64,000 bases of DNA from Holdemania massiliensis AP2 (GTDB lineage Bacteria > Bacillota_I > Bacilli_A > Erysipelotrichales > Erysipelotrichaceae). Positions 219 to 48,903 of this stretch are shown here, in pieces. Positions within the stretch are counted from its first letter, which is position 1; the number at the start of each line of letters is the position of its first letter. The notes under the pieces were generated by a model that saw nothing but the letters and a program-made list of their open reading frames with translations, did not search any database and was not told the DNA's origin. The stretch is taken from assembly GCF_000327285.1 (NCBI RefSeq), contig NZ_HE998570.1, forward strand, positions 86,178-150,177, written 5' to 3'. The position numbers and the translations under genes are program-made.

Positions 219-1829
219 ATGAAAGGAACAAAGAAATTACTCTGTCTGACCCTCAGTCTGGTTTTGATGGGAATGACCGCCTGCAGCACTCAGAACACAC
301 CGGCGCCTTCTGCAGAACCTTCAGGGGATCCGCAGACCACATCCGCAGCCCTGCAGGACAGCGATGTCGACGTTTTAGTCATCGGAGCTGGAGGAGCTGG
401 TTTAAGCGCCGCGGTATCGGCTTCGGAAAACGGAGCCAGCGTCATCGTTGTTGAAAAAATGTCGATCATGGGCGGCAATACGCTGCGCAGCGGCGGCGCT
501 TTCAACAGCTATGATCCGGAAGGTCAGGCCAGCACCAAAATGGATGATTCATTGAAAGCGACGGTCGAGAAGCTGCTCGCCGTTGAACCGATCAATGATG
601 CGCATAAACAGCTGATTGAAGACGTTCAGAAACAATATGATGAATATTTGGCTTCCGGTTCGGATTCGTTATTCGACTCTCCGGAATGGCATGCGCTGCA
701 GACCTTGGATGCCGGCGATTATATCGGCAACGTTGATCTGATTCTGACGCTGACCCGCAACACATTGGATACGAAAAAGTGGCTGACAACCAACGGGACA
801 GTCTGGGATCCGACAATCCGCACGGTTATCGGCGCGCTGTGGAATCGTTCAGCACAGACGACCAATGGCTCCGGCGCGGATTTCATTCAGGCCTTAAGCA
901 CTCAGGCTGAGAAAAACGGCGCTCAGATTTATTTGGATACCAAAGCTGAAAGCTTATTGCAGGAGGACGGAAAAGTTACGGGTGCAACTATTACTAACGC
1001 GGACGGCCAAACCGTAACGGTCAATGCGAAATCCGTCGTCATGGCGACCGGCGGATTTGCGGCTAATGTCGATATGCGGGTTGAATACAATACCGAATGG
1101 GCGGACCTCGGCGAATCCATCGCCACCAACAATCATCCAGGCGCGACCGGCGACGGCATTGTAATGGGTGAAGCCGTTGGAGCAGACCTGGTCGATATGC
1201 AGTGGATTCAGCTGATGCCGCTGTTCCCGGTCAGCGGAGGCGGCATCTCCGGTTATGTCAACAACGCAATCTATGTCAACAAAGAAGGTCAGCGGTATGT
1301 CAACGAGGATAACCGCCGTGACGTTCTGGCTCAGGCTGCTTTGAATCAGACGGATAAACTGTTCTTTGTGATCAACGACCAGACAGAAATTGACAGTGTT
1401 CAGATTCCGCAGGATAAACTGGATTACATGGTGGAAGCCGGAATGTTGTTCAAGGGTGAAACCGTCGAAGAACTCGCTGAAAATATGGGCGTACCGGCCG
1501 AAAATCTGAAAAAGACAATTGAGGATTACGGGAAAGCCGTCGATGCTCAGAAGGATGAATTCGGACGTTCTACCTGGGGCGCACGGCTGGATAATCCGCC
1601 GTACTATGCCGCTTCCTATACCCCGGCTGTGCATCATACGATGGGCGGTTTAAAAATCAATACGGAAGCTCAGGTTCTGAATGCGGCCGGAGAAGCGATT
1701 CCAGGCTTCTATGCAGCAGGTGAGGTAACCGGCGGAATTCACGGAACCAACCGTGTCGGCGGCAACGCTGTTCCGGATGCGTTGGTTTTCGGTAAAATCG
1801 CAGGCGCAAACGCAGCAGTTCAGAAATAA
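219..1829 (+). CDS. Exported FAD-dependent reductase lipoprotein (fumarate/urocanate reductase family)
   Basis: Predicted flavoprotein of 536 residues that would reduce an unsaturated organic acid outside the cytoplasm. The N-terminus is a lipoprotein signal with lipobox MTAC (Cys22). A dinucleotide-binding motif VIGAGGAGLSAA follows near residue 54. The C-terminal half carries the family active-site signatures: a RRD segment (NEDNRRDVLAQ), HHTMGG, and GTNRVGGN followed by DALVFGKIAG, which match the substrate-binding His and Arg regions of flavocytochrome c fumarate reductases. Unlike its four relatives in this window it has no FMN-binding domain, so electrons must arrive from a separate protein. 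A TetR gene follows after a terminator, and a palindrome lies in its promoter. The fumarate-reductase-like core is clear; the substrate is unknown. Confidence 0.85.
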   Translation: MKGTKKLLCLTLSLVLMGMTACSTQNTPAPSAEPSGDPQTTSAALQDSDVDVLVIGAGGAGLSAAVSASENGASVIVVEKMSIMGGNTLRSGGAFNSYDPEGQASTKMDDSLKATVEKLLAVEPINDAHKQLIEDVQKQYDEYLASGSDSLFDSPEWHALQTLDAGDYIGNVDLILTLTRNTLDTKKWLTTNGTVWDPTIRTVIGALWNRSAQTTNGSGADFIQALSTQAEKNGAQIYLDTKAESLLQEDGKVTGATITNADGQTVTVNAKSVVMATGGFAANVDMRVEYNTEWADLGESIATNNHPGATGDGIVMGEAVGADLVDMQWIQLMPLFPVSGGGISGYVNNAIYVNKEGQRYVNEDNRRDVLAQAALNQTDKLFFVINDQTEIDSVQIPQDKLDYMVEAGMLFKGETVEELAENMGVPAENLKKTIEDYGKAVDAQKDEFGRSTWGARLDNPPYYAASYTPAVHHTMGGLKINTEAQVLNAAGEAIPGFYAAGEVTGGIHGTNRVGGNAVPDALVFGKIAGANAAVQK

Positions 1830-2891: not shown

Positions 2892-4274
2892 GTGCAGAAG
2901 GGTCAGCTCACTGCGGTTCTGCTTTGCGGCTGCAGCGTGCAGGAAGGGCCGGAGCTGCCGCAGCCTTCCATAGTTCCCACATCCACGCCGAGTCCAGAAA
3001 CGAATGAGAAAGAGGATTCATCAAAGCCGCGCTGGCTGCGGGATATGGACACTGCTCTTTACGAATTCAGCCATGATTATCAGCTGGAGATGACAGATTC
3101 TGCTTGGGTTTTCACAGATGATCTGAAGCAAGGCGATATTGTGGTGAACCTGATCAACGAGGAAATCACGTTTGACTTTCCGGATGTCACAATTGAATAC
3201 AAGAAGAAAGACCGCGTCATGAAAACCGCTGTGTTCTCGGCGCAGCTGAACATGCGGTTGGACGGGTCGGATTTTTCCTGGCAGTCCGCAGTGGATACGG
3301 AAGACCGGCAGCATTATCCAATTCAATTTGATCCGAAGAAGATTGAAATTCAGGATGGGGAAAGTGGGTCTTCAACGAAGGGGCAGAAGATGAATTTCTC
3401 ACCGTCGCTGTATGGTCAATGTCTGAGCTATATGAAGCGATACTGGAATCAATCGGTCGTTCAGCAGGCGCTGATCGAGCAGGCTGTCAAGGCAAGTCAA
3501 TCGCATACAAACTCAAACGCCGGGACAGTGAATGTCGAAAGACCTTTGGATAAAATGGTTAATATTTTGGAACTCGGTTCAATAACTCCGGATATTACGC
3601 TGGAAGTTGAGATGAATTTCAATGAAATCACGGATATATCTTTGTCGGAAGCCAATAAGCTGCAGCGCACGCTGTATTTGTTTACGGTGATGAAGCGGGG
3701 CTTTGATGATCCGTCAAAGATTGATTGGGAAGCACTGGCGCCGAGTTTAATGAGTATGATTCCTAACTATGGCTGTGATGGTAAGTATTGCAAAGATCGC
3801 GAGGGTCAGGTACGTTTTGCGGACTTTGCGATCCCGGAAGGTTATGGCGCGTTGGCGACGCAGCCAGAGATGAATCGGGCGGCCAAAGTTTTAACAGGTC
3901 AGGACTTTGTTTATGATGATTATGAAAATCGCAAACTGAGCAGCGGTGCTGTTTACAGTCAGAGTGCCAACAGCTACATCACTTATTCACGGGAAGGCGA
4001 CTGGATGCCGGCCAGTCCGGGAATCATGATTCTGGATCAGACGAAAAAGGACAATCGAATCACCGTGGATTTTGTTGCCTATCGTGTGGAGTGGAAAGAT
4101 AATGAACTGTTTGTTGAAGGTGTGAAGGTTGCGGAGGTGAAAGGAAACAATGCCAATCCGCAGATCGTTCAGACCGTCAAGGAAAATCTGGACCGGTTGC
4201 CGCATTGGACCGCGGAACTAGAAGATACCGGCGATGAACATTTTTATCGGCTGATTAGGGCTTCCCGAAAGTAG
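2892..4274 (+). CDS. Putative lipoprotein of unknown function
   Basis: The frame is open from 2814, but a terminator lies inside 2823-2866, so I place the start at the GTG at 2892, preceded by AAGGCGG at 2874-2880. This gives about 460 residues. The short N-terminus (VQKGQLTAVLLCGC) looks like an abbreviated lipoprotein signal with a Cys at residue 14, followed by a Pro/Ser/Thr/Glu-rich linker (PSIVPTSTPSPETNEKED). The body has many alternating beta-type segments and two conserved-looking cysteines (NYGCDGKYC). I do not recognise the family. The signal peptide is shorter than usual and has Cys at lipobox position -2, so the N-terminus may be eroded. It stands alone between two terminators. 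Confidence 0.6.
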   Translation: MQKGQLTAVLLCGCSVQEGPELPQPSIVPTSTPSPETNEKEDSSKPRWLRDMDTALYEFSHDYQLEMTDSAWVFTDDLKQGDIVVNLINEEITFDFPDVTIEYKKKDRVMKTAVFSAQLNMRLDGSDFSWQSAVDTEDRQHYPIQFDPKKIEIQDGESGSSTKGQKMNFSPSLYGQCLSYMKRYWNQSVVQQALIEQAVKASQSHTNSNAGTVNVERPLDKMVNILELGSITPDITLEVEMNFNEITDISLSEANKLQRTLYLFTVMKRGFDDPSKIDWEALAPSLMSMIPNYGCDGKYCKDREGQVRFADFAIPEGYGALATQPEMNRAAKVLTGQDFVYDDYENRKLSSGAVYSQSANSYITYSREGDWMPASPGIMILDQTKKDNRITVDFVAYRVEWKDNELFVEGVKVAEVKGNNANPQIVQTVKENLDRLPHWTAELEDTGDEHFYRLIRASRK

Positions 4275-4323
4275 GCGTTTCATTCCGTTTTTTCCCTGAG
4301 CTGAAAAAGAAAACAATACCGAG

Positions 4324-4353
4324 CTGTCTGCCCTAAGCAGGCAGTTCTTTTCG
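4324..4353 (+). terminator. Rho-independent terminator
   Basis: Stem CTGTCTGC (4324-4331), loop CCTAA, GCAGGCAG (4337-4344, one G-U pair), then TTCTTTT. It separates the lipoprotein gene from the tmk operon. Confidence 0.8.
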
Positions 4354-4445
4354 TTGCCCAAAGACGAAGAACAGGAAGGGAAAGGTTGTGGCGTAATGGT
4401 GGATAACCGTGATATAATAGCACAAGAGATCAAGGGTGAAAGCAC

Positions 4446-17961: not shown

Positions 17962-19752
17962 TTATTGTCCCAGCGCGTCCTTGACGGCTTCCCGGATGCC
18001 ATTGCTGGAATTGGTAGCGCCGGAAACGGCATCAAGATCCAGATTCTGCGTTCTGATCAGCTCCGGAATGAACTGTTCTGCAGCCCCGGCATAAATATTC
18101 GCCGTTTCAGCCTGTTCTAAAACATTGATCTCAGTGATGCTTCCGTCTTTAACGATGACTTCAACCTTAATCGGACCGTTGTTGCCCTGACCTTCGCCGG
18201 TGTAAGTGCCGTCTGTGAAGCTGCCTTTGACCACTTCTGAGTCTTCCGACTGTGCCGGAGTGCGGTCAAATGGAACATGCTCGGTTAAGCCTTGGCGGTC
18301 CAGAATGTATTCGATCGCATTGCGGGCAGAGAGCCGGCCGAAGACGACGGCTTCTCCCAAACCGACAGAATAATAAGCACCCTGAACATTACCGATGACT
18401 TCCCCGGCAGCGTACAGACCCTTGATCGGCTTGCCTTCCTGGTTGAGGACGCGTCCGGTTGTGTCGGCTCTGACGCCGCCCAGTGTGTCCATAACGCCCG
18501 GTGTTAAATTCACGGCATAGTATGGTCCCGCCTTGTAGGTGTCGGCCAGCTTCACAACTTCTTCGTTGCCGATGCCGTCCGTCTTTAAGCTGCTCATCGT
18601 GGTCAGGAAAGCCTCTTGATCCACACCCATCTTTTCAGCCAGGTCTTCCAGGGTATCGGCTTTGATGACCGTGCCGCTGTTGTCGATGCCGGTCATCCGG
18701 TATTCATCAAAGAAATCCTTTTCTTCAATAGCCATGAAATTCTGATAAATCGTTTCATTGTAAACGCCGAAGCATTCCGCATCCGTTTGTTTCAGGATAT
18801 CTTCAGTAATTCGCCGATCTGAGCTGGCTTCGCTGTATTCATTGGTGAAGCGCTTGCCTTCCTTGTTGACGAAGACGACGCCGTTGTTTTTGATCGGCAG
18901 CTGCATCTGAATAGAGAACGGCGCAACTGCACAGGACAGCTGAATCAGATCCATGTTGACTAGATCCGCTCCCAGTTTTTCCGCCATAACGATACCATCG
19001 CCCATATTGCCCTGACTTGGAGCTAAATGAATGTTGGCCAGTCCAGGATTGTCATAGTTGGCGATCATTTCCGGATTGCTTTCATAACCGCCGGTCGCCA
19101 GAATGACAGCTTGGGCATCAATCGTATATTCACCGTGGGCGTCTTTGACCTGCACGCCGTTAACTCGTCCGTTTTCATCTGTTGTCAGATCGACAGCCGG
19201 ACTGTTGTAGCGGATTTCAATGCCGTTTTTCTCGGCTTGTTCTTTTAAAACACGGACTAATTCCACACCGGGAATGGTGCCGTCCGTCGGACAATGCAGA
19301 TCAGCGTAGCGGATCTTTCCCCATTCCGATCCGAAGCCGTCCAGCCATTCGATGACTTTCGGCGTTTCAATAGCGATGACGCCTGCCATATCCACATCCG
19401 CAAAGCCGGCGCCGTTCTTGATGATTTTATCCACCAACATGACCGGTGTTTCTTCTTTTCCCTGTTCGTCCATAAAGCGGGAGTTCGTACAGTTAAAGCC
19501 GCCGAAAGCCATCGTGGTGCTTCCGCCCGCAAAGGACATCTTCTCTAAAACCAGAATGTTGTCCGCGCCTTGTTCGTGCGCCTCGACCGCAGCTGCCAGG
19601 CCGGCTCCGCCTGCGCCGACGATGACGATATCAAATTGTTCGTTGCCGGATTCGGGTTGAGGGTCCGGGGTTTTTTCAGCCGGCGTATTCGCACAGCCGC
19701 CTAAGCCCAGAGCCAGACAGGCGCCCAGGGTCAGGGCAAGTAATTTCTTCAT
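17962..19752 (-). CDS. Exported flavin reductase, FAD domain then C-terminal FMN-binding domain
   Basis: 596-residue lipoprotein (GLGGC, Cys20). The FAD domain starts at VIVGAGGAGLAAAVEA (about 44). The C-terminal FMN-binding domain (about 505-596) ends with DAVSGATNSS, the motif flavinylated on Thr by ApbE. This order is the reverse of the three other two-domain reductases here. The substrate region is also divergent: MDTLGG replaces HHTMGG, and QGAYYSVGLGEAVVFGR replaces the canonical NRxGGN segment, so the substrate-binding His and Arg of fumarate reductases are missing. It probably reduces a different kind of acceptor. A weak promoter lies at 19778-19806. The TetR gene at 16985 follows, and the two-component operon lies upstream. 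Confidence 0.85.
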   Translation of the reverse strand: MKKLLALTLGACLALGLGGCANTPAEKTPDPQPESGNEQFDIVIVGAGGAGLAAAVEAHEQGADNILVLEKMSFAGGSTTMAFGGFNCTNSRFMDEQGKEETPVMLVDKIIKNGAGFADVDMAGVIAIETPKVIEWLDGFGSEWGKIRYADLHCPTDGTIPGVELVRVLKEQAEKNGIEIRYNSPAVDLTTDENGRVNGVQVKDAHGEYTIDAQAVILATGGYESNPEMIANYDNPGLANIHLAPSQGNMGDGIVMAEKLGADLVNMDLIQLSCAVAPFSIQMQLPIKNNGVVFVNKEGKRFTNEYSEASSDRRITEDILKQTDAECFGVYNETIYQNFMAIEEKDFFDEYRMTGIDNSGTVIKADTLEDLAEKMGVDQEAFLTTMSSLKTDGIGNEEVVKLADTYKAGPYYAVNLTPGVMDTLGGVRADTTGRVLNQEGKPIKGLYAAGEVIGNVQGAYYSVGLGEAVVFGRLSARNAIEYILDRQGLTEHVPFDRTPAQSEDSEVVKGSFTDGTYTGEGQGNNGPIKVEVIVKDGSITEINVLEQAETANIYAGAAEQFIPELIRTQNLDLDAVSGATNSSNGIREAVKDALGQ

Positions 19753-19833: not shown

Positions 19834-21567
19834 TCAGGACATTGGCCGCGGCGGCTGAGCGGCAGCCTCCGTTCCGGCAATCCGTCCGAAGACGATACAG
19901 TCAGGAAACGAGTTACCGCCTAAGCGATTGGCGCCGTGGATCCCGCCGGTCACCTCGCCGGCCGCATAAAGCCGGGGAATCGGCTGTGTCTTTTGATCGA
20001 GAACTTGGGCGTGTTCATTGATTTCGACGCCGCCCAGCGTGTGATGCACCGTGACGGTCTTGGCGGTGGCGTAAAATGGCGGGTGATCAATTTTATTGAT
20101 TAACGTCCTGCGCTGAAAGCGGGGATCGTACTGCTGTTCAACACTGCGGTTGTAGTCATTCACGGCTGCTTCCAATACGCTGAAATCCAGTTCCAACTGA
20201 CGGGCCAGGTCTTCCAAGGTATCGGCTTTGACCACTTGTCCCATCAGCACCAGCCCCTCCAGGAAGTCGCGGTCTTCCTGCAGCGAGGAAAAATCATCGT
20301 CGGCGAGGGAATAGACAAACCCGTGATCCTGTGACCGGATCGCCTGGGCCAGTTCATCCCGGCCGGCATCCTCACGGATAAACCGATCGCCTTCGGTGTT
20401 GACTAGAATCCCGTGATTGATCGCGTTGGGAATGGAGTTGTGCAGTCCGCCGTCGTAAATATCCGCCATCGGATACAGCTCGATATATTCCATGTCGATC
20501 AGCGAAGCCCCGATGGCCTGCGCCATCACAAGACCATCGCCCACCGTTCCCGGCGTATTGCTGCAAAGCAGATCCCCGGTTAGGCTCTGATCGTACTGCA
20601 TCCGCATTTCCACATTGTAGCCGAAACCGCCGGTCGCTAAGATCACGCCCTGCCGCGCTTGGAACTGGATCGGCTGACGTTGCTGGACAGCCTGGACTCC
20701 GATCACGGCAGAACCCTCCTGAATCAGCGCTTCCGCCCGTGTATTCAGATAAAAGTCAACCTGTTCCCGAACACAGGCATCGCTCAAAACCTGAATGAAA
20801 TCTGTACCGTTATGAGCCTTGGAATAATGACCGCGGGCATGCTCGCCGCCCAGACAGTTGTCGATCACCGTGTCAATTTCTAACCCCAGCTCCTGCAAAA
20901 ACGCCAGACCCTCATCGGCTTGGGAAGTCAGGATCCGCACCAGCTCCGGTTTTGCTTTCTGATGGCCGCCGTTGAAGGTTTCTTCAAAGAAAAGCTGTTC
21001 GCTGTCCATGATCTGCAAAGGATGCTGGAGCTGATCATCCACACAGTTATACATGGCGGTAGCCCGGATTGTATTGCCGCCCAGACTGTCGGCTTTTTCC
21101 AGCACCGCAACGGAAGCCCCCTGGCGTGCGGCGCTGACGGCCGCGGCTAAGCCAGCTCCGCCTCCGCCGATGACCACCACATCATAGATTTCTGAAGCTT
21201 CCTCTTGAACTGTCGGCGTTTGGGGGCGCGCGGCATAGAGTTGTTCCTCGGTAAAGCCCTGACGTTTCAACAAGCGCTCAATTCCTTTGCGCAGTGCTTC
21301 ACAGGACTGGGTTGCTCCACTGACCGCATCAATCTGCAGCGTTTGATTTTCTAAAATCTGAGCGATGAAGTCGGCCAGGGCGGGATCTGCGATTTCCGGC
21401 GTATCCGCATGGCTCAGTACCTGAATCGCGGTAATGCGCTGATCTTCACTCAGCACTTCAATGTCCATCGGGCCTAAATAACCGTCAATTTGACAGCGGG
21501 TGGAGGAAGACGCGCAGCCGCAGCACAAAATCAGACAGAACGAGGGGATGATTTTCTTCAAGTTCAT
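19834..21567 (-). CDS. Exported FMN- and FAD-containing reductase lipoprotein
   Basis: 577 residues. The N-terminus MNLKKIIPSFCLILCCGC ends in a cysteine-rich lipobox. The FMN-binding domain comes first (about 22-100) with DAVSGATQS, the ApbE target. The FAD domain begins at VVIGGGGAGLAAAVSA (about 133). Active-site signatures are canonical for the fumarate/urocanate-reductase group: REDAGRDELAQ, VHHTLGG and GANRLGGN followed by DCIVFGRIAG. The gene overlaps the upstream solute-binding protein gene by 4 bases and is the last gene of the operon that starts at 26109. The two-component system and binding protein in that operon probably sense the substrate. Confidence 0.88.
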   Translation of the reverse strand: MNLKKIIPSFCLILCCGCASSSTRCQIDGYLGPMDIEVLSEDQRITAIQVLSHADTPEIADPALADFIAQILENQTLQIDAVSGATQSCEALRKGIERLLKRQGFTEEQLYAARPQTPTVQEEASEIYDVVVIGGGGAGLAAAVSAARQGASVAVLEKADSLGGNTIRATAMYNCVDDQLQHPLQIMDSEQLFFEETFNGGHQKAKPELVRILTSQADEGLAFLQELGLEIDTVIDNCLGGEHARGHYSKAHNGTDFIQVLSDACVREQVDFYLNTRAEALIQEGSAVIGVQAVQQRQPIQFQARQGVILATGGFGYNVEMRMQYDQSLTGDLLCSNTPGTVGDGLVMAQAIGASLIDMEYIELYPMADIYDGGLHNSIPNAINHGILVNTEGDRFIREDAGRDELAQAIRSQDHGFVYSLADDDFSSLQEDRDFLEGLVLMGQVVKADTLEDLARQLELDFSVLEAAVNDYNRSVEQQYDPRFQRRTLINKIDHPPFYATAKTVTVHHTLGGVEINEHAQVLDQKTQPIPRLYAAGEVTGGIHGANRLGGNSFPDCIVFGRIAGTEAAAQPPRPMS

Positions 21568-37375: not shown

Positions 37376-38185
37376 ATGAAGAGTAGAATTAAGGAAACAG
37401 CCAACGCCATGAATGTCAGCAATGAACTGCTGCGGTATTACGAACGGCTGGGGTTGATTCATCCGCTGCGAAACGAAAGCGGATATCGCGAATACACGCA
37501 GCAGGATGTAGAGATTCTGACCGGAATTTTGCGGTATAAAAACATGGATATTCCACTGGAACAGATTAAGACGCTGATTTATGAAGGCTCTTTGGACACG
37601 TTGGAAGAAACGCTTTCGCAGAAAATAGAGGATTTCGAGTGGAACCTGAAAAAGCAGCAGGCGATCCTGCAAAGTATGATTGACTGCCGTCGGGAACTGA
37701 ACAACGTGAAAACAAGCCTTCATGAAATCGAACTGACAACCAGTCCGGCGATTGTTCGATTCTCACTGTTTTCCAAGACCCGTATCATGAGCGAAATTGC
37801 CGGCGAGAAAAACCGGCAGTTTACAAATCTGCTTCCGATATCCTTTATTTCCCCGGTCGTCCGCAAACAGGATTGGACGAATAAAAAAAGTCAAATTGAA
37901 TTTGGTTTTGGGATCGCGCTCAACGATTTTCAGGAATTTCAATTAACCTGGTTTGAGAACTATGAGAATCATCCCTCAAATCTGGCCTATTCGTTTCTGA
38001 TCGAAACCATTGGGGAGGACCGACTGAATCTGGCACATTTTCATTGGGTTTTGGAATATGTTTGCCAACAGGGTTATGAAGTGAATGGCGATTGTTGGGG
38101 TTACACGTTGGGAAACTGTGTGGGCAAGGATCAGGAACATCACCGCTTTCATCGTTTTTATCTTCCGGTCATTAAACGGGGTTGA
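37376..38185 (+). CDS. MerR family regulator with ligand-binding C-terminus
   Basis: 269 residues. The N-terminal MerR domain is complete: helix-turn-helix AMNVSNELLRYYERLGLIHP, wing GYREYTQQDVEIL, then a coiled-coil helix (about 75-115). The C-terminal domain (about 120-269) ends in HRFYLPVIK, like GyrI/BmrR-type drug- or small-molecule-binding domains. AAGGAGG precedes the start. Its stop codon lies inside the -35 of the next gene's promoter, which has a 19-base spacer with an inverted repeat. It almost certainly activates that flavin reductase gene, with the ligand presumably the reductase's substrate. Confidence 0.92.
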   Translation: MKSRIKETANAMNVSNELLRYYERLGLIHPLRNESGYREYTQQDVEILTGILRYKNMDIPLEQIKTLIYEGSLDTLEETLSQKIEDFEWNLKKQQAILQSMIDCRRELNNVKTSLHEIELTTSPAIVRFSLFSKTRIMSEIAGEKNRQFTNLLPISFISPVVRKQDWTNKKSQIEFGFGIALNDFQEFQLTWFENYENHPSNLAYSFLIETIGEDRLNLAHFHWVLEYVCQQGYEVNGDCWGYTLGNCVGKDQEHHRFHRFYLPVIKRG

Positions 38186-38212
38186 CCTTACAAACGTTGT
38201 AGGGGTTATGAT
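38182..38212 (+). promoter_or_regulatory. MerR-type promoter with 19-bp spacer and operator
   Basis: TTGACC (38182-38187), 19-base spacer (38188-38206), TATGAT (38207-38212). The inverted repeat CCTTACAA-ACG-TTGTAGGG (38186-38204, one mismatch) fills the spacer. The over-long spacer with a centred dyad is the classical layout for MerR activation by DNA distortion. Confidence 0.85.
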
Positions 38213-38238
38213 AGGAAAGTCACAAGGAGGAAATAAAT

Positions 38239-40149
38239 GTGAAGAAACTAGCGGTTTTGTTCTTGTCTGCGATGCTGCTTCTGGGGGGATGCACAACGCA
38301 GGAAAAGAAAACATCAGCGTTCAAAGCTGGAACGTACAGCGCAACGGCAGAGGGTCGAAATGGTGAATTGACGGTCGAAGTTGTTTTATCTGCGGATAAG
38401 ATTGAATCAGTCACGGTGACCTCGCATCAGGAAACAGAAGGCATTGCGGATCCAGCCATCGAAAAGATTCCCAGTGCGATTGTAGAAGCCCAGGGATTGG
38501 GAATTGACGCGGTTTCCGGCTGCACGATAACCAGTGAAGCGATTCTGGCGGCCGCCTCTTCAGCGCTGGCTTCCGCGGGCGCGGATGTGGAAGCACTCAA
38601 AGAAATTCATCTGAGTGCGGCAGCCGGTGAAGACACGGAGGAAACTGTCGATGTGGTCGTTGTCGGCGGCGGCGGAGCCGGGATTGCGGCAGCGAGCAGC
38701 GCGGCGGAACAGGGCGCCAGCGTCATTCTCGTTGAAAAAACATCGGCTTTGGGCGGCAATACGCTGGCCAGCGGCTTTGCGATGAATGCCGCGGACCCGG
38801 AATTGGAAAATCAGCTGGATGCGCTCAATGGTCAAGTTGAAACCTTGAAGGCTGTGCTTGATTATGATGAAAGTGAGTTCGGGGATTATGCAGACACATT
38901 GAAAACCTTGAAAACACAGATTAACGAATACCTTAAGGGCGATACAAGCAAAGAATTCGATTCGGTTGAATGGCATATCATTCAGACCTACCAAGCCGGA
39001 AAACGAGTCGACCTCAGCGGCGAGGAAATCAGCGGTGATTTTGATCTGGTTCGGATCTTATGTGAAAAATCATTGGAAACCTTCCATTGGCTGGGGGATA
39101 CAGTCGGCGTAGCTTTGAGTGACGAATTATCCAGTCCGGTCGGATCTCTGTGGTTAAGAGGTCATAATTTTGAAAGTAAGGAAGGCGTCTTCGCTTCGGC
39201 GCAGCAGTATATCGAAGCGCATAACGGAAAGATTTATTTAGCTACCCGGGCTACCGATCTGATTCTGGACGGGGATGCGGTCACGGGAGTGATCTGCCGC
39301 AAAGAAGATGGATCCACCTTAACGATTCATGCGAAAAATGTCATTCTGGCAACCGGCGGCTTTGGCGCCAATGGGGAAATGGTAAAAGAGTACAATACCT
39401 ACTGGCCAGCGATTCCAGAAGGCATTAAAACCACCAATGTTGCCGGGGCAACCGGCGATGGAATTGAACTGGGCCTGCAGGCAAAAGCTTCGCTGACAGG
39501 CATGGGCATGGTTCAGCTGATGCCGACAGCCAGCGCCGTGACCGGTCAGCTTGCGGACGGTCTGTTGGTGCCGAGCCAGTATTACATGTTTGTCAATCAG
39601 GAAGGGAATCGCTTTGTCAACGAATATGCGGAACGGGATGTCTTAGCCAGTGCGGCTTTAAGTCAGACCGACGGCGTTTTCTACCACATTGCCGATCAGA
39701 ATATGATCCCAACGCTGCAGAACAAAGCAACGCAGGAACAGGTCGACGCGATGGTGGAAAAGGGAATTCTGTATAAGGCAGAGAGTCTGGAAGCCCTGGC
39801 TGAACAAATCGGATGTCCGAGCGAGAATCTGATGGCTTCGGTTGAAAAATACAATTCGTATGTCGACGCGGGAAACGATCCGGATTTTGGAAAGAATGTT
39901 TTCGGCAGTAAAATTGAGACCGCCCCTTACTATGCGGTTATCGAAAAACCGAGCGTTCATCATACGATGGGCGGACTGACGATCAATACGGAAGCTCAGG
40001 TTTTAAATGAAGCTGGCGAAGCGATTCAAGGTTTATATGCCGCAGGGGAAGTGACCGGCGGTATTCATGGCGGCAACCGTGTCGGCGGCAATGCCATCGC
40101 GGACATTATGGTTTTCGGAAGAATTGCCGGAGCCAACGCCGCGAAATAA
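38239..40149 (+). CDS. Exported FMN- and FAD-containing reductase lipoprotein
   Basis: 636 residues from GTG 38239, eight bases after AAGGAGG; an ATG two bases earlier is followed by a stop. Lipobox LGGC (Cys18). The N-terminal FMN domain (about 25-115) has DAVSGCTITS, where Cys replaces the usual Ala of the ApbE target SGAT; Thr96 should be flavinylated. The FAD domain starts at VVVGGGGAGIAAA (about 139). Active-site features are canonical: NEYAERDVLAS, VHHTMGG and GGNRVGGN before DIMVFGRIAG. It follows its MerR regulator. It is the closest relative in the window to the first reductase at 219. Confidence 0.9.
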   Translation: MKKLAVLFLSAMLLLGGCTTQEKKTSAFKAGTYSATAEGRNGELTVEVVLSADKIESVTVTSHQETEGIADPAIEKIPSAIVEAQGLGIDAVSGCTITSEAILAAASSALASAGADVEALKEIHLSAAAGEDTEETVDVVVVGGGGAGIAAASSAAEQGASVILVEKTSALGGNTLASGFAMNAADPELENQLDALNGQVETLKAVLDYDESEFGDYADTLKTLKTQINEYLKGDTSKEFDSVEWHIIQTYQAGKRVDLSGEEISGDFDLVRILCEKSLETFHWLGDTVGVALSDELSSPVGSLWLRGHNFESKEGVFASAQQYIEAHNGKIYLATRATDLILDGDAVTGVICRKEDGSTLTIHAKNVILATGGFGANGEMVKEYNTYWPAIPEGIKTTNVAGATGDGIELGLQAKASLTGMGMVQLMPTASAVTGQLADGLLVPSQYYMFVNQEGNRFVNEYAERDVLASAALSQTDGVFYHIADQNMIPTLQNKATQEQVDAMVEKGILYKAESLEALAEQIGCPSENLMASVEKYNSYVDAGNDPDFGKNVFGSKIETAPYYAVIEKPSVHHTMGGLTINTEAQVLNEAGEAIQGLYAAGEVTGGIHGGNRVGGNAIADIMVFGRIAGANAAK

Positions 40150-45815: not shown

Positions 45816-47627
45816 TTATTTGTTGGCTGCTGCCTGCTGACCTGCGATCCGTCCGAAATAGACGGCGCCGCCGATCGCCATGCCGCAGCATGGATATTCG
45901 TCGCCGAACAATCCGGTAAAGGCGACTTCACCGGCCGCATACAGACCTGGAATTGGGTTGTTTTCCGTATCCAGCACCTGAGCCTGAACATTGGTGACTA
46001 AACCGCCGAAGGTGACGGTTACACTTGGACGCAGTTTCAGGGCGAAGTAAGTTTCGCCTTCAACCGGCATCATGTGTTCTGCCGGCTTGCCGAAATCTTC
46101 ATCCTTGCCGCTGGCGCATAATTCGTTGTAACGGTCGATTGTTGCCTGCAGTTCAGCGGCATCGACTTCCATCAATTTAGCCAGTTCTTCAATCGAATTG
46201 GCTTTGATCGTCTTCTCTAACGACATCGCATACTGTACGGTTGGGGTTGTGTCGTTGGCTGTAGCGAGATACCAGCCGTAGCTGCTTCCGCTCTTGGCGA
46301 GGGCATTGCCGACATGATACTGATAGGTATATTCGTTGGCGACACGCTTGCCTTCGGCATTGACGATCAAGCCGGCTTCTTCATTGATGCCGACGCCGGA
46401 ATTGAAATCCAGGTAAACTGTCTGAGTCGCCGGAGCATCAAAGATCTGAGCGTTGACCTGCTTGCCCATCGTTAAGCCGTCGCCGAGGTTGCCGGCGGGA
46501 ACGGATGTTACAAAGCCTTCTGTGGATTCAGCATAACGCTGCATCATTTCCTTGTTCTGAGCATAACCGCCGGTCGCAAGGATAACGTTTTTAGCGTTGA
46601 CTGTCAGCTTGCTTCCATCGGCCTTGGTTGCGCTTAAGCCGACAATCGCTCCGTCCGCATCGGTCAGAATGGTTTCTGCAGTTGTATTGTAATAAATTTC
46701 GCCGTTGTTCTTGAGGTATTCTTCTGTCATCGGCACGGTGATGTTGCCGCCGAAGCCGTCGGTCATGCCGCCGCCGCTGTGGCCTGCCGCATTGGTGGTG
46801 TTATGAACACGCCATGGAGTTAAAGACTGATGAATGGCTTCAACGTCAAAGATCATAACGCCCATGTCTTCCAGCCACGTCATGTTTTCCACAGAATCGT
46901 TGCAGAAAGCGGTGATCATTTCATCATTGAGCTGTTCGGCAGCACCGTCCATGGTTTTCATGTAGTCCAGCATCATTTTCGGAGTATCTTCATAACCCTG
47001 CTTTTTCTGCCATTCTGTTCCGGCAGCCAAGAGCTTGCCGCCGCTGCGGGTTGTGGCGCCGCCAGTCACACCCTGCTTTTCCAGAATGATGACTTTTGCG
47101 CCGGCACGGCTCGCTTCAATGCCTGCGGCTAAACCGGCAGCACCAGCGCCGGCAATGACGACGTCAGCGTCCAGCGTCAGATCTTCCGGATTCTTTTCCA
47201 CCGGTACGTTCTTTAAGGCTTCAGCATCGCCGCCGGCTTCTGTAACCGCGCTGGCTACTGCGTTTTTGATGGCGGCAGTGGTAATTGTCGCGCCGGTGAT
47301 GTTGTCCACACCCAGTGACTGCGTTTCGACGATCTGCTTTGGCAGAACTTCTACCGGGGAAGTTTCCAGGCCGTAGCCGATACCATAAGTCTCCTGATGA
47401 CTTTTAACGGTGACATCGGTGATCGCATCGGCGCTGACGGTGACATCCACGCTGATTTCACCCTTCATGCCATTGGCAGTTCCGGTATAGGTTCCGGCTG
47501 TGTAGGATGGTTTCGCATTGGCGTCCGGGGTCGGCGCCGGCTTGTCGTTGGTGCCGCAGGCGGTCAAGGACAAGGCCAGGACTCCGCACAGAAGCAGCGC
47601 TGTGAACTTGCTTGCTTGTTTCTTCAT
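45816..47627 (-). CDS. Exported FMN- and FAD-containing reductase lipoprotein, divergent active site
   Basis: 603 residues from ATG 47627 with AAGGAG upstream. The longer frame would start inside the promoter. Lipobox LTAC (Cys24). The FMN domain (about 35-130) has NITGATITT, the flavinylation motif. The FAD domain starts at VVIAGAGAAGLAAGIEA (about 157). The substrate region differs from fumarate reductases: VTVTFGG replaces HHTMGG, the RD pair after NEY is absent, and FGDEYPCCGMAIGGAVYFGR replaces the NRxGGN segment. The paired cysteines near the FAD end are unusual. Divergent from a MerR gene whose likely operator fills a 19-base promoter spacer. Confidence 0.88.
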   Translation of the reverse strand: MKKQASKFTALLLCGVLALSLTACGTNDKPAPTPDANAKPSYTAGTYTGTANGMKGEISVDVTVSADAITDVTVKSHQETYGIGYGLETSPVEVLPKQIVETQSLGVDNITGATITTAAIKNAVASAVTEAGGDAEALKNVPVEKNPEDLTLDADVVIAGAGAAGLAAGIEASRAGAKVIILEKQGVTGGATTRSGGKLLAAGTEWQKKQGYEDTPKMMLDYMKTMDGAAEQLNDEMITAFCNDSVENMTWLEDMGVMIFDVEAIHQSLTPWRVHNTTNAAGHSGGGMTDGFGGNITVPMTEEYLKNNGEIYYNTTAETILTDADGAIVGLSATKADGSKLTVNAKNVILATGGYAQNKEMMQRYAESTEGFVTSVPAGNLGDGLTMGKQVNAQIFDAPATQTVYLDFNSGVGINEEAGLIVNAEGKRVANEYTYQYHVGNALAKSGSSYGWYLATANDTTPTVQYAMSLEKTIKANSIEELAKLMEVDAAELQATIDRYNELCASGKDEDFGKPAEHMMPVEGETYFALKLRPSVTVTFGGLVTNVQAQVLDTENNPIPGLYAAGEVAFTGLFGDEYPCCGMAIGGAVYFGRIAGQQAAANK

Positions 47628-47666: not shown

Positions 47667-47697
47667 ATTATACAATGTCCTGTGACAGGAAGGTCAA
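47667..47697 (-). promoter_or_regulatory. MerR-type promoter with 19-bp spacer and perfect operator
   Basis: On the minus strand, TTGACC (47692-47697), 19-base spacer (47673-47691), TATAAT (47667-47672). The spacer contains the perfect dyad TCCTGT-C-ACAGGA (47678-47690). The layout is the same as at 38182 and reads toward the flavin reductase at 45816. Confidence 0.88.
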
Positions 47698-47844: not shown

Positions 47845-48903
47845 ATGCGTATTCAACAAGTCTGCCAGCGAACGGGACTGACGAAAAAAGCGATCTATTT
47901 TTATATTGAGGAAGGTCTGGTGTCGCCGCAGCGCTGTGATGAAAATCATTACCTGGAGTTCAGTGAAGATGACGTCCGCAGTTTACAGATCATCGCGTTG
48001 TTAAGACAATGGGATATGCCGGTCAGTGAGGTTCATGAGCTGTTCGATTATCCCAGCATGACCAATTTTTATCTGCATCGCCGGCTCAACGCGCTGCGCA
48101 ATCAGCTGCTGCGGCAGCTGGGGTTAGTGCATTCCTTATCTGCGTTGTTGACGGAACTGCCGCCGCAGTACAACATGAGCAGCATGCAGGAACAGATCGG
48201 CCGCAGTACCGCGCCCAGCGAAGCCGATCAGTCAACCTTGGATCTGTTGTGTCCGGATCAGGATGCCCGCATGATCTCGATTTTTATCTGGAGTTCTTTT
48301 CTCAATGTATCGAAGAGTGAATACCGGTTGTTTCTGTGGCGGAAAATGACAGAACAGGCGCAGCAGGACTTAAAAGGATCACTGAAATATGTAGCCCGGA
48401 TCATCTATGCTTTGGATTCTGAATGGATTGAAAAAGATGCCCGGCAGAGATACCGCGATACCCAGGCGATACTCAAGCTGGATGAAACGACCTTTCCGAT
48501 CTATACGCAGAGAATCTTGGACTGCCTGCATCATTTGGTGGAGGATGATCGTGAACAGGCTTATTGGAAGCTCAATTATGAAAAGGTAACGCTGCCGCTC
48601 GTACAGTTTTTCAACGGTCCGCTGGGAACGCTGATGGCTGAGTATAATCCGGAATACCGCCTCTATCTGACAAAGATGCAGCAGCTGGTGGCGGAGGTGG
48701 TTCGGCGTCTTCAAACCGGCGGTGAACAAGCGTTGTACCAACAGCTGCAGACCCTTCTGGCAGGTCAGCTGGATATTGAAAAGGATGGGAATCTATTAGG
48801 CTATTATGCGTTTGAAATGGGACTGTACCGGAGTTTGCCTCTGGACGTTCAGCGCCGGCTGCTGATCGAGTCCAATCGGGAAGCTTCCCCGCTTTCCCGA
48901 TGA
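47845..48903 (+). CDS. MerR family regulator with large C-terminal domain
   Basis: 352 residues. The N-terminal MerR helix-turn-helix is clear (RIQQVCQRTGLTKKAIYFYI, then EEGLVSP and ENHYLEFSEDDV). The C-terminal part of about 240 residues is helical and not recognised; it is longer than in most MerR proteins and probably holds a ligand pocket. It is divergent from the flavin reductase at 45816, whose promoter has the MerR-type spacer and dyad. It is the expected activator, sensing the acceptor or a related metabolite. Confidence 0.88.
   Translation: MRIQQVCQRTGLTKKAIYFYIEEGLVSPQRCDENHYLEFSEDDVRSLQIIALLRQWDMPVSEVHELFDYPSMTNFYLHRRLNALRNQLLRQLGLVHSLSALLTELPPQYNMSSMQEQIGRSTAPSEADQSTLDLLCPDQDARMISIFIWSSFLNVSKSEYRLFLWRKMTEQAQQDLKGSLKYVARIIYALDSEWIEKDARQRYRDTQAILKLDETTFPIYTQRILDCLHHLVEDDREQAYWKLNYEKVTLPLVQFFNGPLGTLMAEYNPEYRLYLTKMQQLVAEVVRRLQTGGEQALYQQLQTLLAGQLDIEKDGNLLGYYAFEMGLYRSLPLDVQRRLLIESNREASPLSR

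Follow-up and report, generated by a model that had tools for sequence, protein, structure and literature searches.

A predicted MerR-type switch, with a BmrR-fold regulator, recurs ahead of flavin reductases in Holdemania massiliensis and related bacteria

What controls the flavin reductase that, in Holdemania massiliensis AP2, is encoded directly behind a gene for a MerR-family regulator? The initial annotation had read the junction of the two genes as a MerR-type promoter, with a long spacer and a dyad, serving an extracytoplasmic reductase. The locus lies in a 64-kb stretch of DNA (64,000 nucleotides, here called the window), and its features are as follows, with the basis for each in parentheses.

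37376-38185, plus strand: MerR-family regulator, 269 aa (Pfam MerR_1/MerR, AlphaFold model, BmrR fold match)
38182-38187, plus strand: -35 hexamer TTGACC (sequence)
38186-38193, plus strand: left operator dyad arm CCTTACAA (sequence, dyad scoring, identical or near-identical in five orthologues)
38188-38206, plus strand: spacer TTACAAACGTTGTAGGGGT, 19 nt (sequence)
38197-38204, plus strand: right operator dyad arm TTGTAGGG (sequence, dyad scoring, orthologues)
38207-38212, plus strand: -10 hexamer TATGAT, 19 nt past the -35 (sequence and spacer scoring of pairs)
38224-38230, plus strand: Shine-Dalgarno AAGGAGG (8 nt ahead of the GTG start at 38239)
38239-40149, plus strand: flavin reductase, 636 aa, GTG start (Pfam, TIGR01813, structure alignments)

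The layout TTGACC-19-TATGAT agrees base for base with that first described, and the TGA stop codon of the MerR gene (38183-38185) is, as had been noted, nested in the -35 hexamer. The description of the dyad stands in part: CCTTACAA/ACG/TTGTAGGG (38186-38204, centre 38195) forms seven of eight pairs, but it does not lie wholly in the spacer, since its left arm opens with the final two bases of the -35 hexamer. A generic sigma-A promoter scan (16-18 nt spacers) reported nothing at 38182-38212, as expected with a spacer of 19 nt, and as the scan gave no such site here an ordinary sigma-A promoter of that spacing was dropped. No terminator was recognised between the MerR gene and the reductase, and transcription could, judging from the sequence, read through from one into the other; ahead of the MerR gene, no promoter of convincing quality was found (best score 4.7).

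If the site were a chance resemblance, then the reductase would be served by an ordinary promoter elsewhere, or only by read-through from the MerR gene. First-order Markov simulations of the 64-kb window predict 1.48 sites of the form TTG[AC]C[CT]-N19-TANNNT, compared to three found. When at least six dyad pairs are demanded the expectation falls to 0.01 and two are found, which argues that the site is not due to chance. This result, together with an operator retained by all five orthologues and the statistics of spacer and dyad (both below), leaves chance a very improbable explanation. Both sites with at least six pairs precede reductases that adjoin MerR genes: one is 38182-38212, the other belongs to a second pair within the window.

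47667-47697, minus strand: second MerR-type promoter, TTGACC-TTCCTGTCACAGGACATTG-TATAAT, six dyad pairs (pattern scan)
47845-48903, plus strand: second MerR gene, 352 aa, differing in the C-terminal part and divergently oriented to its reductase
45816-47627, minus strand: second MerR-paired flavin reductase of the window

Further reductases of the window are without MerR neighbours: 219-1829 (plus strand), 17962-19752 and 19834-21567 (both minus strand). The first of these is the closest own-genome paralogue of the reductase under study (49% over residues 124-635) and is without FMN_bind.

A search for the dyad ahead of homologous reductases had been suggested with the initial annotation, and there the dyad is retained. 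Scanning genome contigs with the reductase gave five orthologues (the same scan with the MerR protein gave no matches): three are 79-81% identical (L210, L211 (=G207) and L213 (=G284), from Erysipelotrichaceae or Firmicutes MAGs) and two 72-73% identical (L212 and L214, both Lachnospiraceae MAGs). All five carry TTGAC[CT]TTA[CA]A, a centre and TTGTAA, with a 19-nt spacer, in surrounding DNA that is divergent; a MerR gene lies upstream in four of the five, the contig of L210 stopping there. A relative from Secundilactobacillus (46%) has neither a MerR nor such a site. The orthologous MerRs are 30-35% identical overall to the window MerR, and share with it the DNA-reading segment NxSxELLRxYERxGL (with one conservative change) and the sensor motifs LPxxFISP and DxWGxTxG.

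For comparison within the genome, upstream regions in 44 stretches around own-genome reductases were scored with one fixed generic sigma-A matrix, allowing spacers of 14-23 nt. For each of the seven further reductases that have a MerR gene immediately upstream (four co-directional and three divergent pairs, the -35 always TTGACY or TTGCCT) the 19-nt spacer was best or tied-best. With the window pair included this is true of 8/8 MerR-paired reductases vs. 3/42 others (Fisher 3e-7); the own-genome paralogues are diverse, though the pairs share ancestry and are not fully independent. Most of the remaining 42 reductases have LysR, two-component or other genes close by. Two of the three exceptions (L056 and L071) have 8-pair dyads, and their operators look like trans targets.

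The last observation bears on which regulator acts at 38182-38212: the site might be real, with another genome-encoded MerR chiefly acting there. Trans control seems to be present in the genome. The reductases of L068 (C3:83500-92500) and L071 (C3:30500-38000), ~50 kb apart, have the near-identical operator TTGACC-CGACAGTGGCTGTCGGGTY-TTTAAT; the MerR of L068 sits downstream of the L068 reductase and L071 has no adjoining MerR, so that a single regulator with two targets is suggested. The L187 MerR (3630-4421; C1:1646.6 kb) adjoins no reductase; its relative in a sister species (L184; genome G002), at 72% identity, is paired with one. An operator nearly identical to that of this paired MerR is found at L056 (C1:1108 kb), ahead of a reductase ~540 kb from L187. 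The window operator, however, is present in its exact form once in the genome, with no further match at up to three mismatches, and the match between helix-turn-helix (HTH) and operator points to a MerR of the adjacent type.

This match was evaluated over pairs: identity of the HTH and identity of the operator are correlated (Mantel r 0.56; 0.46 when dereplicated, p 2e-4). MerRs with the operators nearest to that of the window (81-94%) have DNA-reading regions 48-69% identical to the window's and sensor domains 14-30% identical. Operator identity goes with that of the sensor domain as well (dereplicated r 0.40), so shared ancestry contributes to the match. The co-variation points, indirectly, to the adjacent MerR as the probable binder of the dyad at 38186-38204, and we consider it improbable that another MerR is the principal regulator. 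Sensor-domain and reductase identity still go together once HTH identity is controlled for (partial r 0.48), which fits, and does not prove, a sensor tuned to the chemistry of its enzyme.

To extend the comparison over the order, 294 genomes were searched with a profile built from ten MerRs; inspection of 60 stretches gave 28 additional MerR/reductase pairs, which together with the eight own-genome pairs makes at least 36. The best spacer is 19 nt in 32/36 pairs vs. 3/42 own-genome reductases that lack a MerR upstream (Fisher 4e-14; this test and that above count pairs as independent although ancestry is shared, and a script assigned the gene starts and pairs). The other four pairs retain TTG[AC]CY-19-TANNNT with 5-9 dyad pairs. 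Mean symmetry over the 36 is 6.2 of 9 dyad pairs at centre 14, compared to about 2 at almost every other centre; none of 20,000 spacer shuffles matched the observed symmetry (first 13 sites minus the near-duplicate L071, n=12). A dyad centre at promoter base 14 is what we take to be the CueR register. Both the 19-nt spacer and the dyad between the hexamers, in fixed register, are found at the window site. In 5/30 co-directional pairs (the window pair at 38182-38187, L138, L147, L148 and L160) the TGA of the MerR gene falls within the TTGAC of its target's -35 in the same register. Class-level MerR matches outside the order include three ahead of a reductase, two of them with a site of the form described for the pairs.

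The fixed register also bears on the possibility that the inverted repeat works at the RNA level, forming an attenuator or terminator hairpin behind the MerR gene. Read-through RNA can indeed fold the repeat as a hairpin, but no T run follows it, folding is no better than that of shuffled sequences (z -0.35) and no Rfam family matches: on these grounds the hairpin was rejected. Nor would an RNA function explain a single register of the dyad to -35 and -10 in 36 pairs, and from transcripts of the 38182-38212 promoter the dyad would be absent. A role in RNA is hardly credible.

A MerR switch, as predicted from these sites, is thus recurrent before at least 36 MerR-paired reductases, with palindromes that differ; on this view every regulator is probably a sensor for the compound that makes its own reductase necessary. 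On a quick FastTree tree of the reductases, in which long branches are present, MerR pairing changes at least nine times (13 in the most parsimonious labelling). A single monophyletic origin of the pairing was therefore rejected: regulators appear to have been swapped repeatedly among reductases.

Related MerRs also adjoin other kinds of genes. In a sister family (L127, L128, L130, L131, L133-L135) they point away from a gene resembling a dehydrogenase, behind which comes one resembling a transporter; the operator here, of the CTCAAA-NNN-TTTGAG type, is conserved and the spacer is 19 nt. At L132, L146, L159, L164, L166, L172 and L182 they precede ~640-aa proteins that by eye are old-yellow-enzyme-type-like, again with 19-nt spacers, and at L155, L165, L176 and L180 a MerR is divergent to a ~140-aa gene, PTS IIB-like by eye, with TTGACCTGGTGGTTACCACCACC-type sites and a 19-nt spacer.

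The window regulator comprises a winged-helix HTH (residues ~1-70), a long helix (73-114) and a C-terminal GyrI-like sensor (~118-267). Pfam recognises the N-terminal MerR domain (PF13411, E 3e-14; also PF00376); the sensor domain was not detected by Pfam sequence search. A 10-sequence AlphaFold model (mean pLDDT 90.7) has the long dimerisation helix and the GyrI-like C-terminal fold; its best full-length match is BmrR (Foldseek E 5e-13; Z 14.2, 253 residues), and GyrI (1jyh) is also matched (Foldseek E 4e-5). The model thus confidently places the protein in the full-length BmrR fold. The C-terminal parts of the second window MerR (352 aa) and of the L077 MerR (340 aa) align poorly with BmrR-like sensors, and the 19-nt promoter rule therefore seems to extend over more than one sensor type.

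The nearest full-length folds of the window MerR are BmrR, EcmrR and BrlR, which PMC9909328 describes as multidrug sensors that carry a GyrI-like domain, and MATE-like genes are also found behind such sites (L136, L198, L199). The promoter could accordingly be of MerR type and the sensor, like BmrR, answer compounds that are toxic or drug-like, with the reductase detoxifying them rather than respiring them.

The reductase consists of a lipoprotein-type signal (LLGGC), an FMN_bind domain (residues 39-110; 56.6 bits) with the flavinylation motif DAVSGCT at residues 90-96, and a FAD_binding_2 / flavocytochrome c-like domain; it scores 330.7 bits against TIGR01813, over the cut-off. A lipoprotein-type protein of FMN_bind and FAD_binding_2 fits the designation 'extracytoplasmic reductase'. 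The reductase domain matches FccA/UrdA (E about 1e-70), and R466, H574 and R614 align (to 1d4c and 6t85) with conserved FccA/UrdA residues whose roles we presume to be in the active site. The QAHPT of FccA, in which we take the His to clamp fumarate, reads QLMPT (M428) in the window protein and five orthologues: the second carboxylate clamp of fumarate reductase (FccA) proper is missing, Met replacing His. The substrate is therefore probably not fumarate, and identity as a fumarate reductase was rejected because the clamp residue is not kept.

The genome contains 42 FMN_bind matches, about 50 FAD_binding_2 reductases and two ApbE genes, a set-up of the kind described for respiratory flavin reductases (PMC8238504, PMC11334425). 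A lipoprotein-type, flavocytochrome-c-like target in such a genome argues against the sensing of drugs, as does the finding that operators differ from pair to pair and that the sensors are divergent: a detoxifying system is possible and, in our estimation, rather unlikely.

The preferred reading is that 38182-38212 is very probably the promoter of the reductase and the operator of the MerR encoded upstream. MerR-family regulators activate promoters with 19-20 nt spacers, according to PMC8113463; PMC9909328 and PMC8113463 describe a MerR dimer that holds an over-long promoter inactive and, with ligand, distorts the DNA into an active promoter. At the present locus the dimer would occupy the dyad between the hexamers; with ligand absent, the 19-nt spacer would keep the two hexamers misaligned for RNA polymerase, and ligand in the BmrR-like C-terminal domain would cause MerR to kink and untwist the DNA, allowing transcription of the reductase. 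Comparative evidence and the BmrR fold of the regulator strongly support, in silico, a MerR-type switch for the reductase, as initially proposed, and with it we infer MerR binding, activation and a transcription start from this promoter. The chances that the ligand is the reductase's own electron-accepting substrate, or a close relative, appear evenly balanced; it would then probably be some small organic molecule such as an unsaturated organic acid. The further suggestion of a new ligand class for MerR is plausible, though varied organic molecules are already bound by the BmrR fold.

Comparison with known systems shows what is shared and what differs. With BmrR, the multidrug regulator of Bacillus subtilis, the window MerR shares the MerR HTH, the long coiled-coil helix, the GyrI-like sensor and the full-length fold, whereas identity is 13-16%, the target is a flavin reductase rather than an efflux pump, and the MerR gene precedes its target in the same orientation, with the operator between the two. 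The CueR/MerR metal promoters (copA, merT) have the same TTGAC -35, 19-nt spacer and dyad centre at base 14; unlike those regulators, the window MerR is without a metal-binding C-terminal loop, has a large domain of organic-ligand type and has no metal-related target. The reductase resembles FccA/UrdA in its reductase domain and the aligned R466, H574 and R614, but has FMN_bind in place of a haem domain and QLMPT where FccA has QAHPT. ApbE-flavinylated extracytosolic flavin reductases of Gram-positive bacteria (PMC8238504) have the same lipoprotein-type signal, FMN_bind and fumarate-reductase-like domain.

MerR control has no mention (0 occurrences) in two papers on flavinylated extracytosolic reductases, including PMC8238504. 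A recurring wiring of BmrR-type sensors to flavin reductases was not found in the literature searched, though 10.1038/s41564-023-01560-2 may mention it. The switch mechanism itself is textbook; the repeated wiring of BmrR-fold sensors to flavin reductases is the unusual part, and this recurrence is invisible from the single site of the initial annotation.

Gut bacteria of this kind have flavin reductases by the dozen, at the cell surface in the present one, and few of these enzymes have an assigned substrate. We tentatively suggest, at somewhat less than an even chance, a family-wide code of one acceptor, one sensor and one reductase: BmrR-fold MerRs would each recognise the electron acceptor of the neighbouring reductase, and would often be re-wired through changed operator half-sites and swaps with LysR or two-component control. 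If each reductase has a substrate-reading sensor, then the operators give a direct reporter assay for metabolites. If the code holds, sensor sequence and operator would predict which reductases have a common substrate and would serve directly as biosensors for metabolites of the gut; the role of BmrR-type regulators, familiar chiefly from drug efflux, would then widen to the choice of respiratory electron acceptors.
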